Positions 1,902 through 6,414 of a stretch of DNA of 64,000 nucleotides are shown here, in pieces. Location of the stretch: positions 1 to 64,000 of the forward strand of contig SHNE01000056.1 in NCBI GenBank assembly GCA_004295015.1, written 5' to 3'. This DNA comes from Bacteroidota bacterium (GTDB taxonomy: Bacteria; Bacteroidota; Bacteroidia; AKYH767-A; 2013-40CM-41-45). The notes below the pieces were generated by a model. The model was not told the DNA's origin. It saw only the letters and a list, made by a program, of their open reading frames with translations, and searched no databases. How positions within the stretch are numbered: the stretch's first letter is position 1; every line of letters begins with the position of its first letter. Both the position numbers and the translations under genes were made by a program.

Positions 1902-2543
1902 TCAGGCAATGTTATTCTTCCTTGCTATTAGAATAGTATGGATATCAAACTCCGTCTCTGATTTATAAAATCTTACTTTAAAAGTTTTTATCTCCTCAAA
2001 TTTATTGACACTAAGATGCTTGGTCAACTCATCTAAAACATAGTAGTGGAAATAGACTCTGTCACCACTACTGCCGGTTTTGTAGTCAGATTCCTTTGGA
2101 TCTCCCTCTACGAAACTTAAATAAATAAGCCCATTGTTGTAAAGTAAATTATAGCTATCCGTAATAAGCTTTACACTTTCTTCCGGAGTTAAAAACGGCA
2201 AACAAAATCCACAAATAATAGCATTATAATTTGCTTTGAGTTCGCTGATCCGTCTACAGTCCATAGTGGCGAACCTTGCCGTCGGATTGTTAGCCTCGGC
2301 AAGCTGTATCATATTAGGTGCAAAGTCAATTCCAAAAATATCGAAGTCAGGCCTTTTTGAAAGTAAATACCTTGTGATGTTTCCGGGTCCGCATCCTATC
2401 TCCAGTATTTTCGGATTGTCCTCTATGATTGAATCGCAAATAAAATCGTAGGTGTCATTATACAAGTTTAAGTCCATAAACTTTTCCTGATACAATCCGG
2501 CAATCTTATTCCAGGTTTCGAATGTTTCTTTTTCTCTATTCAT
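1902..2543 (-). CDS. Class I SAM-dependent methyltransferase
   Basis: A 213-residue Rossmann-fold methyltransferase. Motif I is ILEIGCGPGNITRYL (about residues 46-60), which binds S-adenosylmethionine. The acidic residue after strand 2 is in DIFGIDFAPNM, and motif II/III is near ATMDCRRI. Length and motifs match small soluble methyltransferases whose substrates vary widely (small metabolites, quinones, arsenite). The substrate cannot be read from the sequence. It is the downstream gene of a leftward set that includes a MarR-type regulator 129 bases upstream, so the regulator may control it. No membrane segment or signal peptide is present. Confidence 0.8.
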   Translation of the reverse strand: MNREKETFETWNKIAGLYQEKFMDLNLYNDTYDFICDSIIEDNPKILEIGCGPGNITRYLLSKRPDFDIFGIDFAPNMIQLAEANNPTARFATMDCRRISELKANYNAIICGFCLPFLTPEESVKLITDSYNLLYNNGLIYLSFVEGDPKESDYKTGSSGDRVYFHYYVLDELTKHLSVNKFEEIKTFKVRFYKSETEFDIHTILIARKNNIA

Positions 2544-2672: not shown

Positions 2673-3281
2673 TCACTTTAGCTTATGTTCAGCGCAATCA
2701 ATACGCAATTCCGTGTCTGCCAATTTGGTATTCAGGAGTCCGCAAAAGTGTTTATGGCCGTCCTTGTTTGCTTTATAAAAATGACAAGTGAAACACATTC
2801 TTTGAATAGTAATAACTCCGGATTTATTCAAATGATGAATAATATCCAATAAACTTAAAAGTAAATTTTCTTTATCAGCTGAATGAAGTTTGTCAATCGG
2901 AGCTTGAATTTGCTTTGCAAACTGAGATGTTCGATCTGCAATCTCTTTTCCTTTTTTGGAAAGATGGATTGTGTAGCTTCTGTTATCGTGTGCTTCGTAT
3001 ACCTTCTTAATAAGTTGTTTTTGTTCGAGTGTTTTTATGGTATCACTGATCGTGGCCTTTGTCATATTAAACTCATCAGCCAAATAACTAACTTTTCTTT
3101 TTTGATCTGAATGATGCAATAAAAAAATAAGCACCTGGACTTGAATGGGGCTTAATGAATACTCTTTACTCTCATTCCATAGCAGTACCCTGAAAGCTTG
3201 CGAAACTCTTTCTAAGGAGGCCACAATCCTGCTTTCAATGCTTGAATTCTGATGATCTACATCAAATGCTGATTTTTTCAT
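2673..3281 (-). CDS. MarR-family regulator with four-cysteine C-terminal tail
   Basis: A 202-residue winged-helix DNA-binding protein. The MarR core spans residues about 15-150. Its recognition region is VSYLADEFNMTKATISDTIKTLEQKQLIKK, quoted here as VSYLADEFNMTKATISDTIK. The last 45 residues carry four cysteines, C163-x2-C166-x13-C180-x15-C196, with nearby histidines. That pattern could bind zinc or an iron-sulfur cluster, or act as a redox switch; many MarR proteins sense oxidants through cysteines. Its neighbours are a thioredoxin-like and a DUF2024 protein, consistent with a redox theme. A perfect palindrome in the promoter at 4102-4132 is the most obvious candidate target. No copy of that palindrome was found in front of this gene itself. 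Confidence 0.8.
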   Translation of the reverse strand: MKKSAFDVDHQNSSIESRIVASLERVSQAFRVLLWNESKEYSLSPIQVQVLIFLLHHSDQKRKVSYLADEFNMTKATISDTIKTLEQKQLIKKVYEAHDNRSYTIHLSKKGKEIADRTSQFAKQIQAPIDKLHSADKENLLLSLLDIIHHLNKSGVITIQRMCFTCHFYKANKDGHKHFCGLLNTKLADTELRIDCAEHKLK

Positions 3282-3413
3282 ACGGATTGAATTTTACGCA
3301 AGGACAAGCAAGCAATCATTCCTTTTCAGTGTTATAGCTTTTGAATCCCATCAAGCAAACAGTAAATTGTATTTTGAATTCTGCCATAAAATCCGGTGTT
3401 GAATATAATTTTC

Positions 3414-3758
3414 TTAGTCGCAATTTTCCATTTCAATGATGAAGTAGCCTTTATCTTTAATTGCAAGTTCCCAATGAGTTTTAACAGTTTCGATATGACA
3501 AAATCTACATTCTTTTGAGGACAAAGCTTGCCCTTCCTGTTTTTTTGATTTCAAATATTCTTTCCCGTAAGAATAAATTACGTTTGCGTCTACAATTTCT
3601 TTGGGAGCAATGATGTCAAAGTGCATAATGCTCCCGTCTTTTTTTGTGACATAGGTGTCCCAGACAGCTACTTTCATTTTGCTTTGCGTTTTATCCGGTG
3701 CCTGGCAAGAAGCTTGAAAGAAGATTAGTAGCCAGGCAAAGTTTAAGATTATTTTCAT
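3414..3758 (-). CDS. DUF2024-family protein with predicted lipoprotein signal
   Basis: Residues 28-114 match the DUF2024 family from its usual first residues (MKVAVWDTYVTKKDGSIMHF) through the conserved SKECRFCH motif to the terminal IIEMENC. Function is unknown for the family. Family members normally begin at that internal methionine. Here the frame continues upstream for 27 codons and encodes MKIILNFAWLLIFFQASCQA, a convincing lipoprotein signal with cysteine after a hydrophobic stretch. If used, the protein would sit in a membrane, facing the periplasm. If not, the start is at 3677 and the protein is cytoplasmic with 87 residues. The CxxC-type pair and the thioredoxin-like gene upstream suggest a thiol or metal role, but this is inference. 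Confidence 0.75.
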   Translation of the reverse strand: MKIILNFAWLLIFFQASCQAPDKTQSKMKVAVWDTYVTKKDGSIMHFDIIAPKEIVDANVIYSYGKEYLKSKKQEGQALSSKECRFCHIETVKTHWELAIKDKGYFIIEMENCD

Positions 3759-3785
3759 TTTATCTCTGCTTAAAAAAATAAAAAC

Positions 3786-3820
3786 GCCCCATAAAGGTAG
3801 TTGTCCTAACCTTATGGGGC
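3786..3820 (-). terminator. Rho-independent terminator after the thioredoxin-like gene
   Basis: GCCCCATAA pairs with TTATGGGGC, extended by a partly matched AGGT/ACC segment. The minus-strand transcript then runs into a GTTTTTATTTTTTT tract. It lies 8 bases past the stop of the gene at 3828-4061 and before the DUF2024 gene. Confidence 0.75.
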
Positions 3821-3827
3821 AATTTTT

Positions 3828-4061
3828 TTAACCTTTTACATCAGCTATTGAAGCTCCAAAATTGATGTGCAATACATTTCCATTTGGCGTTAACAATGCC
3901 GGAACAGATTTTACACCTGCATTTTCTGCTTCGGCAATTCTTGATTTATCGTTGCCAACGTGAACTACTTCGACCTTGTCTGCACCTAAAAGGTTAACTA
4001 TGTCGTGTTCTGCACTAATGCAAACAGGACAACCTGCGTGAAAGAAGATTGATTTACTCAT
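3828..4061 (-). CDS. Small thioredoxin-fold protein (CPVC motif)
   Basis: A 77-residue thioredoxin/glutaredoxin-like protein. C11-P-V-C14 is the redox pair, preceded by strand SIFFHAG, and the expected cis-proline is in GVKSVPALL (about residue 54). It is shorter than thioredoxin A (about 105 residues) and lacks the WCGPC motif, fitting small glutaredoxin-like oxidoreductases. No signal peptide is seen, so it is probably cytoplasmic. It has its own promoter with an embedded palindrome (4102-4132) and its own terminator (3786-3820), so it is probably expressed as a single, tightly regulated gene. The target disulfide is unknown. Confidence 0.75.
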   Translation of the reverse strand: MSKSIFFHAGCPVCISAEHDIVNLLGADKVEVVHVGNDKSRIAEAENAGVKSVPALLTPNGNVLHINFGASIADVKG

Positions 4062-4101
4062 TTTTTATAGATTTAAATCTGTTATGACATTATCGTCGGT
4101 G

Positions 4102-4132
4102 CAAATTTAGTTAGGAATCCTAACTAATGCAA
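4102..4132 (-). promoter_or_regulatory. Bacteroidota promoter with a perfect palindrome in its spacer
   Basis: On the minus strand a -33 TTG (4130-4132) is followed after 20 bases by TAAATTTG (4102-4109), a perfect TAnnTTTG -7 box. The start codon of the thioredoxin-like gene lies about 40 bases downstream. The spacer is almost wholly filled by AGTTAGGAATCCTAACT (4109-4125), an uninterrupted 17-base palindrome with one central base. A dimeric repressor bound there would block RNA polymerase. The MarR protein encoded 0.8 kb downstream is the natural candidate. Confidence 0.75.
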
Positions 4133-4441
4133 GTATAAATTTCACCCTGGTCGATTTTCTAATTGAACCTGAAATTTGATCTTTCTGTTTTTGCCTTGGT
4201 CTAAAATTGTCTGTGATTGAATACAGGTTTTGTTCAAGTGAACACTTTCTACACAATCAACATTATAGGAACATAACATAAACTCTCGCTAAATTGGTGG
4301 GGCTTTGTGAAAAAAGCAGTCCGGGCTAAACATATAAGTTTTAAGATTTTACCCGGATAAATACGGCTCTATGTATTGAGAAAATGAATACTAAGTTTAG
4401 AATTCAGTTTTCCGGGTCATCGGGTATAGGGTTTTTTTAGC
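4133..4441. other. Intergenic region between divergent promoters
   Basis: About 310 bases between the thioredoxin-like promoter and the hip operators. A weak CCGGG/CCCGG pairing (about 4321-4356) is visible. No gene or clear RNA structure was recognised. Confidence 0.5.
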
Positions 4442-4543
4442 AAATTATATGCTTTTACATATAATTTGTAACTTTTACCGTTTTTTATATGTAATAGCAT
4501 ATAATTTTATAATTTTACTGTAAATCGTTGCAGAAGCATATAA
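4442..4543 (+). promoter_or_regulatory. Paired operator palindromes of the hip operon
   Basis: TTATATG-N6-CATATAA occurs twice with identical spacing, at 4445-4464 and 4485-4504, exactly 40 bases apart (about four helical turns, so on the same DNA face). The first copy extends to 10-base arms (AAATTATATG at 4442-4451). A third half-site CATATAA (4537-4543) runs into the ATG of the antitoxin gene. HipB proteins bind spaced palindromes to autoregulate their operons, so these are the likely HipB sites. Confidence 0.7.
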
Positions 4544-4767
4544 TGAGAACATTAGCGCAATTTGTTAAAGACAAACGAAAAGAAGCCAATCTTACCCAGG
4601 AAGAGTTTGCGGAACGGGCCGGAGTGGCCTTAACTGTAATCAGAAAAATTGAACAAGGAAAAGAAAACCTTAACCTCGAAAAAGTAAATCGTGTACTGAA
4701 GATGTTTGGCCATTTACTAGTTCCTGTAAGCAGGAAGGATTTATTAATGAAAGAACAAACTAAATGA
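4543..4767 (+). CDS. hipB: HipB-like antitoxin / XRE-family repressor
   Basis: A 74-residue protein starting at ATG 4543; an in-frame TTG 15 bases earlier is less likely. It carries a canonical helix-turn-helix: LAQFVKDKRKEANLTQEEFA followed by ERAGVALTVIRKIEQGKENL. This is the single-domain XRE form of HipB found next to hipA genes. It is predicted to bind the palindromes at 4442-4543 and repress the operon, alone or bound to the kinase. The gene overlaps the next one by four bases (ATGA), indicating translational coupling. In E. coli HipBST the HipB partner is a DNA-binding component, while HipS neutralises the toxin. Confidence 0.85.
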   Translation: MRTLAQFVKDKRKEANLTQEEFAERAGVALTVIRKIEQGKENLNLEKVNRVLKMFGHLLVPVSRKDLLMKEQTK

Positions 4768-5096
4768 GAAGAGCAGAAATATATTATAAAGATTCTCTTG
4801 CCGGACTGCTTACTGAAACCGACGAGGGCCAATATATATTTCAGTATGACAAAGATTACACAATTAAATTTCCGAATCAGGTCATTACTTTTTCCATGCC
4901 TGTGACCGAACAAGCTTATATCGATAATCGCTTGTTTCCTTTTTTCGAAGGTCTTATTCCGGAAGGATGGCTACTTGATATTGCATCAAAAAACTGGAAG
5001 ATAAACCCGGCTGACCGTATGGGATTATTATTAGCGTGTTGTCAAAATTGTATAGGTGCTGTTAGTGTAAAGGCAATCAACGAAGAAAATGAATAA
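4764..5096 (+). CDS. hipS: HipS-like protein (isolated HipA N-terminal subdomain)
   Basis: A 110-residue protein matching only the N-terminal subdomain of HipA: YKDSLAGLLTETDEGQYIFQ with the characteristic Y-x-D, then the ...YDNRLFPFFEGLIPEGWL segment, here beginning YIDNRLFPFFEGLIPEGWL. No kinase motifs are present. In full-length HipA this region precedes the kinase in one chain; here it is a separate gene overlapping the kinase gene by eight bases. This matches the hipB-hipS-hipT arrangement known from E. coli O127, where HipS is the antitoxin for HipT. Assignment as antitoxin is by analogy; in many Bacteroidota the split is simply annotated as a HipA N-terminal domain protein. Confidence 0.8.
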   Translation: MRRAEIYYKDSLAGLLTETDEGQYIFQYDKDYTIKFPNQVITFSMPVTEQAYIDNRLFPFFEGLIPEGWLLDIASKNWKINPADRMGLLLACCQNCIGAVSVKAINEENE

Positions 5097-6048
5097 GTGT
5101 TTATATTGTTATGAAGAATTAGAATCTCCTCATGAAAGTGATTTTCATGAACGATGTAGTCTGGAGTTTTTCGGAACCAAAACTGCACCACTGCTTTTAT
5201 ACTCTTTAAATCAGATGTATGAGCTGGCAAAAGAAGTAGTTGAGAGAAGTGTAGCGGTACCCGGGGTGCAACCCAAGTTATCACTTTCATTAATGAATAA
5301 TGCAATAACGGATGGCAATAAAAGCAGATTAACAGTTGTAGGAGCAATGGGTGGAAATTACATCTTTAAACCACCCTCAGAATTTTATCCTGAAATGCCG
5401 CAAAACGAACATGTAACAATGCGGATTGCTGAAGCCTTTGGACTAAGAACTGTAAAATCGAGTTTAATCCGATTGCAATCAGGTGAGCTTTCATATATCA
5501 CAAAAAGAATTGACCGCAGCGACAGTGGAGAAAAAATTCACATGCTTGATATGTTTCAAATTTTAGAAGCATTTGACAAATACAAAAGCTCAATGGAAAA
5601 AGTTGGCAAGGCAATAGGCCAATATTCCGATGACACACTATTGGATCAATTATACTTTTTTGAATTAAGTGTATTTTGTTTTCTTACCGGAAATAATGAC
5701 ATGCACCTGAAAAATTTTTCGATGATTAATTCCAGCCACAAATGGGTTCTGGCTCCGGCTTATGATTTGTTAAATGCATCAATAGTGAATCCGGAAGATC
5801 AAGAAGAGCTTGCATTGACGCTTGAAGGCAAAAAGAAAAAAATAAATCGTGTAAATTTTGAACATTTAGCTAAAACTTTAGACCTAAACGAAAAACAAAT
5901 TGATTCTGTTTTTAAAAGGATGATCAAAAATAAAATACATGCAATGGATTGGATAGATAAATCATTTTTATCAAGCGACTACAAAGAAAAATATAAAATG
6001 TTTTTAGAGCAGAAATATCTTATTCTGGAGAATGCAGCTATTAGTTAA
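5089..6048 (+). CDS. hipT: HipT-like serine/threonine kinase toxin (HipA C-terminal part)
   Basis: A 319-residue kinase. Residues 1-25 hold three cysteines (CLYCYEEL and FHERC) typical of split Bacteroidota HipA kinases. The Gly-rich loop region is RSVAVPGVQPKLSL (residues 53-66), the ATP lysine is probably K94 in YIFKPP, the catalytic loop is GNNDMHLKNF with D204 and N209, and the metal aspartate is D226 in APAYDLLN. All core catalytic residues appear intact. HipA phosphorylates glutamyl-tRNA synthetase and E. coli HipT phosphorylates tryptophanyl-tRNA synthetase; the target here is unknown. The serines near residues 54 and 65-67 are candidates for autophosphorylation, which regulates HipT. 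Confidence 0.85.
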   Translation: MNKCLYCYEELESPHESDFHERCSLEFFGTKTAPLLLYSLNQMYELAKEVVERSVAVPGVQPKLSLSLMNNAITDGNKSRLTVVGAMGGNYIFKPPSEFYPEMPQNEHVTMRIAEAFGLRTVKSSLIRLQSGELSYITKRIDRSDSGEKIHMLDMFQILEAFDKYKSSMEKVGKAIGQYSDDTLLDQLYFFELSVFCFLTGNNDMHLKNFSMINSSHKWVLAPAYDLLNASIVNPEDQEELALTLEGKKKKINRVNFEHLAKTLDLNEKQIDSVFKRMIKNKIHAMDWIDKSFLSSDYKEKYKMFLEQKYLILENAAIS

Positions 6049-6327: not shown

Positions 6328-6340
6328 CGATTCATTAAAG

Positions 6341-6414
6341 CGGTCCGGACGGGACTCGAACCCGCGACCCCATGCGTGACAGGCATGTATTCTAACCAGC
6401 TGAACTACCGAACC
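6341..6414 (-). tRNA. tRNA-Asp (anticodon GTC)
   Basis: A 74-base cloverleaf on the minus strand. Acceptor GGTTCGG (6408-6414) pairs with CCGGACC (6342-6348), discriminator G at 6341, anticodon GTC at 6378-6380 within CCTGTCACG, and a T arm containing GGTTCGAACCC. The 3' CCA is not encoded. GTC reads aspartate codons GAC and GAU. Confidence 0.95.

Follow-up and report, generated by a model that had tools for sequence, protein, structure and literature searches.

A conserved palindrome in a Bacteroidota promoter as the predicted operator of a cysteine-tailed MarR-family regulator

The 64-kb window (the whole stretch of DNA that was analysed) contains a palindrome, O1, which, judged from sequence and locus comparison, is very likely the operator of a local MarR-family repressor encoded two genes downstream. 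The regulator is predicted with strong confidence to bind O1 and, slightly less firmly, to repress the promoter in which O1 lies (P1); we infer that this repression depends on a ligand, given the family to which the protein belongs and where in the promoter O1 lies. What goes beyond an earlier note on this DNA is a second operator-like site, the breadth of conservation, and a nitrogen-oxide context. To our knowledge, few regulator-operator pairs have been established in Bacteroidota; the present pair is sharply defined, occurs in many named isolates, and allows a base-by-base prediction of binding.

Predicted operator O1 and promoter P1

The earlier note had described a perfect 17-base palindrome sitting exactly between the −33 and −7 boxes in front of a CPVC thioredoxin-like gene. 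The palindrome was borne out (core AGTTAGGAATCCTAACT, 4109–4125), and read directly its perfection extends to 21 bp, with 10-bp arms around one central base (Table 1). Its placement held in part: O1 lies inside the spacer, but it also reaches into the −7 box, which has one base in common with the core and three with the 21-mer. The position in front of the gene was likewise as described, in that a minus-strand promoter is followed by the 77-aa CPVC orf, whose ATG at 4061 is about 40 bp beyond the −7 box. Sigma-A promoters of Bacteroidota carry a TTG about 20 bp upstream of the −7 box. The minus-strand reading of 4150–3770 includes atactTGcatTAGTTAGGATTCCTAACTAAATTTGcaccg, with the −33 TTG at 4132–4130, and a spacer of 20 bp (4129–4110) separates this TTG from TAAATTTG; with TAnnTTTG and a TTG at N20, P1 is a predicted sigma-A promoter of the Bacteroidota type. 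Its box matches the flavobacterial −7 consensus TAnnTTTG (PMC9723704). Column profiles of 61 loci showed that both T residues of the −33 TTG are kept at 93% and the G less, and that the −7 box is conserved as TAtaTTTG. Around O1, the site and the −7 box are conserved, and the flanking DNA is poorly conserved.

Table 1. Features of the locus (positions in the window)
Feature	Position	Strand	Description	Basis or remark
Operator O1	4107..4127		perfect 21-bp palindrome TTAGTTAGGA-A-TCCTAACTAA	sequence and locus comparison
P1 −33 element	4130..4132	minus	TTG	sequence; register shared by 61 loci
P1 −7 box	4102..4109	minus	TAAATTTG	20 bp from TTG; overlaps operator end
Thioredoxin-like protein	3828..4061	minus	77 aa, CPVC	orf; first operon gene
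Hairpin after thioredoxin gene	3786..3820	minus	terminator-like	T-rich tract 3785–3772 follows
O2 (candidate)	3795..3811	minus	GGTTAGGACAACTACCT	inner part of hairpin; 314 bp from O1
P2 (candidate promoter)	3792..3822	minus	TTG 3822–3820, N20, TACCTTTA 3799–3792	overlaps O2 and hairpin
DUF2024 protein	3414..3758	minus		PF09630, 114.7 bits; PDB relative 2hfq
MarR-family regulator	2673..3281	minus	202 aa	Pfam MarR_2; two genes downstream of thioredoxin
Methyltransferase	1902..2543	minus		singleton in neighbour clusters; no sign of operon membership

A bare palindrome of this kind is unremarkable, because 10-bp arms turned up in 4 of 40 simulated windows. Two palindromes with arms of at least 8 bp (centre of 0 or 1 base) occur in the window against 2.9 expected, and one with arms of 10 bp against 0.1 expected per 64 kb; rarity was thus rejected as proof, 8-bp arms being common and 10-bp arms not rare enough in 64 kb. 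The count of the exact core across the phylum was rejected as well, since the pattern and its reversed control were each present in 2 of 296 genomes. The significance of O1 comes instead from the other genome with the exact core, where the genes after the site are P460 and the same Cys-tailed MarR, and from the conservation test across MarR loci given below. Within the 64-kb window, no second match to the 17-mer was found at up to three mismatches. The genome-wide motif search that the earlier note had proposed yielded no second convincing site: at the same threshold, the source genome has 7 motif places against 25 for the reversed pattern, hence no enrichment. The six places besides O1 have 2–3 mismatches, and the three inspected (L002–L004) are without such a promoter, that of L002 falling within a 921-aa orf. 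A larger regulon in the source genome is therefore unsupported, and by sequence the regulon looks local.

Conservation of the site with the MarR gene

The locus set consisted of 80 named records, the best 80 of 290 confirmed MarR relatives, chosen without regard to their DNA; records of these relatives include named isolates of Flavobacterium, Chryseobacterium, and Sphingobacterium. In 75 of the 80 loci, which are related to each other and not independent draws, the 2.3 kb upstream of MarR contain the 17-bp core with up to three mismatches; the numbers with 0, 1, 2, and 3 mismatches were 13, 24, 23, and 15 (60 with at most two). At the same threshold, 300 distinct shuffled-arm palindromes were found in a mean of 1.2 and a maximum of 16 of the 80 loci, some of the top controls containing parts of the real site, and the reversed motif occurred anywhere in 4 of the 80 at three mismatches and in none at fewer. 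When two promoter-derived variants (AGTTAGGATAACTAACT and its reverse complement) were allowed, 76 of the 80 passed, L048 solely through a variant. The four loci without a site even then are L031, where DUF2024-MarR is present, L067, where the contig edge leaves only 61 bases before the thioredoxin gene, L072, and L091 (MarR reads in pieces). Absence of the palindrome from homologous promoters, which would have spoken against the earlier note, was thus not what we saw, and the proposed regulator-site pairing is strongly supported at the level of sequence, with MarR and site constant; because the loci were picked by MarR, their adjacency is partly by construction. The probability that O1 is a chance palindrome in an AT-rich promoter is negligible: palindromes of its arm length do appear in simulated windows, but a chance origin does not account for 75 of 80 loci against the control mean.

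Ten further stretches of 7–9 kb (L016–L025) agreed with this picture, in that the best 21-mer match stands just before the first operon gene with 0–4 mismatches of 20 and is aligned with the −7 box; L022 has a second site tying at 4. A search by DNA only (site plus −7 box, up to two mismatches) found 21 places in 17 of 198 genomes of the class, compared with 1 of 198 for the reversed control. By inspection, 17 of the 21 have a thioredoxin, DUF2024, P460, protoglobin, or MarR gene next to them, and three (L115, L120, and L124) have no recognisable tie to module genes. Two places found in the survey are side observations. At L113, the operator and −7 box stand before two tandem protoglobin-like genes in a 3-kb stretch without MarR; this site may be a relic, or the regulator may act on it from an unlinked locus. 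At L123 (1439–1777), a near-perfect operator and −7 box precede a thioredoxin-like orf with CSEC replacing CPVC, followed about 420 bp past the orf by a DUF2024-like stretch with two stops (L146); genome G308 seems here to carry a second, decayed copy of the module.

The first gene after the site differs by lineage, being thioredoxin-like, protoglobin, cytochrome P460, or DUF2024, and the gene orders seen were P460-MarR, protoglobin-MarR, DUF2024-MarR, and thioredoxin-DUF2024-MarR. Since MarR stays constant as the first operon gene changes (in loci selected by MarR), pairing of the site with MarR is the most economical reading. The thioredoxin-like gene is the most frequent partner (61 of 80 loci); its 77-aa product has the PDB relative 2k8s ("Thioredoxin", E 3.9e-26) and no Pfam match at 0.001. 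Among 61 related genomes, 10 of which carry MarR (the source genome included), thioredoxin was present in 8 of the 10 and in 1 of the other 51, and DUF2024 in 7 of the 10 and 1 of the 51. The AT-rich site is kept even in high-GC module loci (L126, 60% GC, with three mismatches; L135, 67% GC, with two). These two loci come from genomes of a single genus (L135 from G344, L126 from G492), and in both the site is flanked by module genes that diverge from it; one of the two genomes encodes a MarR that has diverged strongly but retains the Cys tail. In G344, thioredoxin, DUF2024, and the site are all present, yet no MarR was found at E ≤ 1e-30.

The usual target of a MarR protein is a palindrome of 16–20 bp that overlaps its own operon's promoter, and O1 is typical in this respect. 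This argues against the alternative that another regulator, such as one of the CRP/FNR or Rrf2 families, binds the palindrome and MarR merely travels along. Some loci do have such genes nearby, namely CRP-like ones (as judged by reading) at 7 of 81 and an Rrf2 gene at L019 and L064, but neither type is constant and MarR is. Moreover, the site follows MarR into two MAGs with Acidobacteriota titles, L038 (titled Acidobacteria) and L034 (titled Pyrinomonadaceae, Acidobacteriota), where the operator is kept and the TATATTTG box is not, so that the operator appears separable from the promoter and tied to MarR. Binding by another regulator is thus highly improbable, and MarR remains the preferred partner of O1.

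A second operator-like site and a candidate internal promoter

The thioredoxin-like gene is followed by a hairpin and a T-rich tract, together a predicted intrinsic terminator. The RNA fold of 3768–3832 has an energy of −25.8 kcal/mol (z −5.0), and across 45 sequences the paired positions of the outer stem alternate between C-G and T-A. A consensus terminator scan placed a terminator here on the plus strand only. An Rfam search of 3300–4600 returned only a sub-threshold trpB motif at 3775–3860 (26.4 bits against a gathering score of 59), which we took as chance.

The inner part of this hairpin, in most of the folds examined, is an operator-like sequence (O2), which in the window has three mismatches to a site variant. 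Among the 62 thioredoxin genes in 81 loci, an O2-like 17-mer (up to four mismatches to any of three variants) was found in 45, compared with 0 of 310 neighbouring stretches of equal size, and lies 14–27 bp past the thioredoxin stop; the other 17 genes (O1 above three or O2 above four mismatches) were left out of the O2 statistics, whereas the O2 histogram covers all 62 and the column profile of the first site 61 of the 62. The same element overlaps a putative promoter, P2: TT[GA]-N20-TAnnTTT[GA] is present at one register in 38 of the 45 O2 sequences, with 135 occurrences in the 1,010,536 bases of the loci. The −7 box of P2 in the window ends in TTTA where the consensus has TTTG. As the O2 sequences were chosen by operator likeness, their TAG/CTA core is not independent of that choice, and because TA and the first T of the box fall in the selection 17-mer, only the later −7 bases and the upstream TT[GA] count as independent. 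We regard O2 as probably a true second MarR site, and P2 as a candidate for a working promoter that is somewhat favoured.

The competing explanation is that O2 is no operator: the thioredoxin gene would simply have an ordinary bidirectional terminator, and the likeness of its loop to the operator would be due to descent or chance. It draws on the strength of the hairpin with its T-rich tract and on the paired changes of the outer stem, with C-G in some sequences and T-A in others. It does not account for the promoter-like pattern at a single register in the 38 sequences, for T18 of O2, which is kept in 43 of 45 sequences while unpaired in 33, or for the several O2 copies that are operator-like without a long stem (e.g., L037, L060, L079, and L082). 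We consider a terminator only to be unlikely, and we read the element, from its sequence features, as terminator, operator, and internal promoter together.

O1 and O2 are 302–326 bp apart (mean 314.5, SD 3.6, 45 loci), which fits 30 helical turns. The constancy of this spacing can be explained otherwise, because the 77-codon gene between the sites is itself constant (44 of 45); DNA looping between O1 and O2 was only a thought and was not adopted.

In the circuit that we propose, a MarR dimer on O1 would block RNA polymerase from the thioredoxin promoter. DUF2024 and MarR would be transcribed from an internal promoter, P2, that coincides with O2 within the thioredoxin terminator hairpin, and MarR would in this way also repress itself. 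A reactive signal on the four-cysteine tail of the regulator would then release MarR, and both transcripts would turn on. If true, the composite of terminator, operator, and promoter would be an unusual economy of sequence.

The regulator, its cysteine tail, and the possible signal

By domain and modelled fold, the protein encoded at 2673–3281 clearly belongs to the MarR family. It matched PF12802 (MarR_2) at 39.5 bits (cut-off 27) and PF01047 at 28.9 bits (cut-off 24.6); its AF2 model has a pLDDT of 83.3, and all 50 Foldseek matches listed are MarR-type as read from their titles, the best being MepR (E 1.1e-6). At E ≤ 0.001, this protein is the only MarR of its kind in the source genome, and no viral relatives were confirmed. 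The last ~50 residues, with the pattern RMCxxC...HFCxLL...LRxDCPEH, contain four cysteines (C163, C166, C180, and C196) that are invariant in 45 of 45 aligned sequences. Three such tails gave no Pfam match over cut-off, matches to the PDB were at E 0.5 or worse, and a fold search with a weak model (pLDDT 70.8) returned nothing at E ≤ 0.001. Cysteines in such a pattern suggest a metal or Fe-S site or a thiol switch, and it is reasonably likely that the tail is the sensor.

As a whole, the arrangement is of a known kind, in which a MarR repressor acts locally through a palindromic operator in its own promoter. With autoregulating repressors of the MepR, MexR, SlyA, and OhrR type, it shares the winged-helix domain and fold and a palindromic operator, predicted here, that overlaps the promoter of the operon encoding the regulator. 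It differs from them in the added ~50-residue tail with four invariant cysteines and no Pfam or PDB relative, in an operator set within a −33/−7 Bacteroidota promoter, and in a second operator-like site inside a terminator hairpin. OhrR, MgrA, SarZ, and AbfR are thiol-redox MarR sensors, and a redox cysteine in the MarR domain defines the OhrR/MexR type. The window MarR has no Cys before residue 163, so none in the MarR domain, and was not assigned to that type; its likeness to the thiol-redox group (OhrR, MgrA, SarZ, AbfR, and SydR) is that of a MarR repressor with cysteines beside its target gene, but its cysteines are all in the C-terminal tail. The zinc-responsive AdcR/ZitR proteins share the MarR fold and a weak sequence likeness (NCBIfam NF038251); a score of 30.1 bits, far below the curated cut-off of 175, led us to reject membership, and the potential metal ligands of the window MarR sit in the added tail instead. 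The nitric oxide regulators NsrR, NorR, NnrR/DNR, and HcpR belong to the Rrf2, sigma54-activator, and CRP/FNR families. What the present circuit may have in common with them is control of NO-detoxifying and repair genes; it differs in family (MarR) and in its site. Among published regulators, SydR is a redox MarR that represses its adjacent gene (PMC11633110), and hcp is predicted to be under HcpR2 control in most Bacteroides species (PMC1274295); in the accessible parts of these two papers, neither was found related to this circuit. Among the matches listed in the open-access literature, no description was found of this MarR, its tail, its site, the operon, or the composite second element; DUF2024 is mentioned in one paper.

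Nitric oxide or another reactive nitrogen species is, tentatively, the most likely signal. Nitrogen oxides lead because globins, P460, and iron-centre repair genes lie near some loci and because nirK and nosZ co-occur with MarR. Of the 80 loci, 18 have a globin gene in operon range (12 protoglobin and 6 truncated globin), and in L024 and L025 the first operon gene is cytochrome P460; Pfam matches in related loci include P460, protoglobin, RIC, Bac_globin, Rrf2, and hemerythrin, with RIC, hemerythrin, truncated globin, and Rrf2 all near L019. In the related genomes, NosZ over cut-off was present in 10 of 10 with MarR and 23 of 51 others (p 0.001), NirK in 4 of 10 and 1 of 51 (p 0.002), and RIC in 9 of 10 and 25 of 51 (p 0.017), all three values ignoring kinship; with one of two near-identical genomes dropped, p was 0.002 for NosZ and 0.001 for NirK. 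The source genome has NirK, NosZ, and RIC on other contigs, where no motif was found at up to three mismatches.

A thiol-reactive species is a close second, because thioredoxin is the commonest partner. By this account, which is nearly as plausible, the signal would be persulfide or sulfane sulfur, hypochlorite, a quinone, a peroxide, or a metal, the circuit would otherwise be the same, and the operon would be a general thiol-redox module made up of the CPVC thioredoxin-like protein and the Cys-tailed MarR. It is consistent with the 61 of 80 loci that have the thioredoxin-like gene, with the 62 of 80 in which no globin, P460, RIC, or hemerythrin gene of the types tested lies in operon range, and with MBL/rhodanese-like orfs, read as sulfur-transfer genes, near one locus (L018). 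A precedent is the repression by SydR, which is relieved by NaOCl among others (PMC11633110). It is less easily squared with the globins or P460 of some operons, with RIC alongside hemerythrin or Rrf2 genes near L019, L022, and L064, with NosZ in all 10 relatives that have MarR, and with the neighbour clusters of at least four loci, in which no recurrent sulfur genes were recognised (mostly by eye).

With nitrogen oxides as the leading signal, our proposal in its fullest form is that many Bacteroidota defend themselves against these compounds with this circuit, and that its sensor belongs to a class of MarR not described before, in which NO would attack a metal or Fe-S centre bound by the four-Cys tail. 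The circuit would have two operators ~30 helical turns apart; the second would be part of an element of ~45 bp that combines the thioredoxin terminator and an operator with the start signal for DUF2024-MarR, so that release of one repressor would switch both transcripts. Taken with all its parts, this proposal is possible but doubtful. The pair may be a means by which Bacteroidota that denitrify or reduce N2O sense reactive nitrogen, and it offers a handle on the function of DUF2024, of a widespread small thioredoxin-like protein, and of an unclassified four-cysteine tail.

Several minor observations concern the genes at and around these loci. DUF2024 of the window has a CxxCH motif and, by eye, a possible N-terminal signal sequence; CxxCH (the c-type heme motif) is present in all 43 DUF2024 copies found in the 80 loci, a copy count that reflects a strict pattern, and a crude test gave a signal-like N-terminus in 4 of the 43. 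A ~246-aa family with a signal-like start and the motif CxKCGNYNNDDFQ follows thioredoxin in 5 of 80 loci (L037, L058, L060, L079, and L100), with an operator-like site just before the gene in all five; a 150-aa piece had no Pfam match. In 13 of 81 loci (e.g., L037, L044, and L052), MarR has a YggS-like gene, identified by sequence reading, in its neighbourhood and in the same orientation. On the plus strand of the window, 4528–6048 encodes consecutively an HTH protein, a protein consisting of the HipA N-terminal domain only (PF13657), and a separate HipA_C kinase-like protein, split genes that we take to resemble tripartite toxin-antitoxin systems of the HipBST type, and a tRNA-Asp (gtc) gene is located at 6340–6414 on the minus strand.
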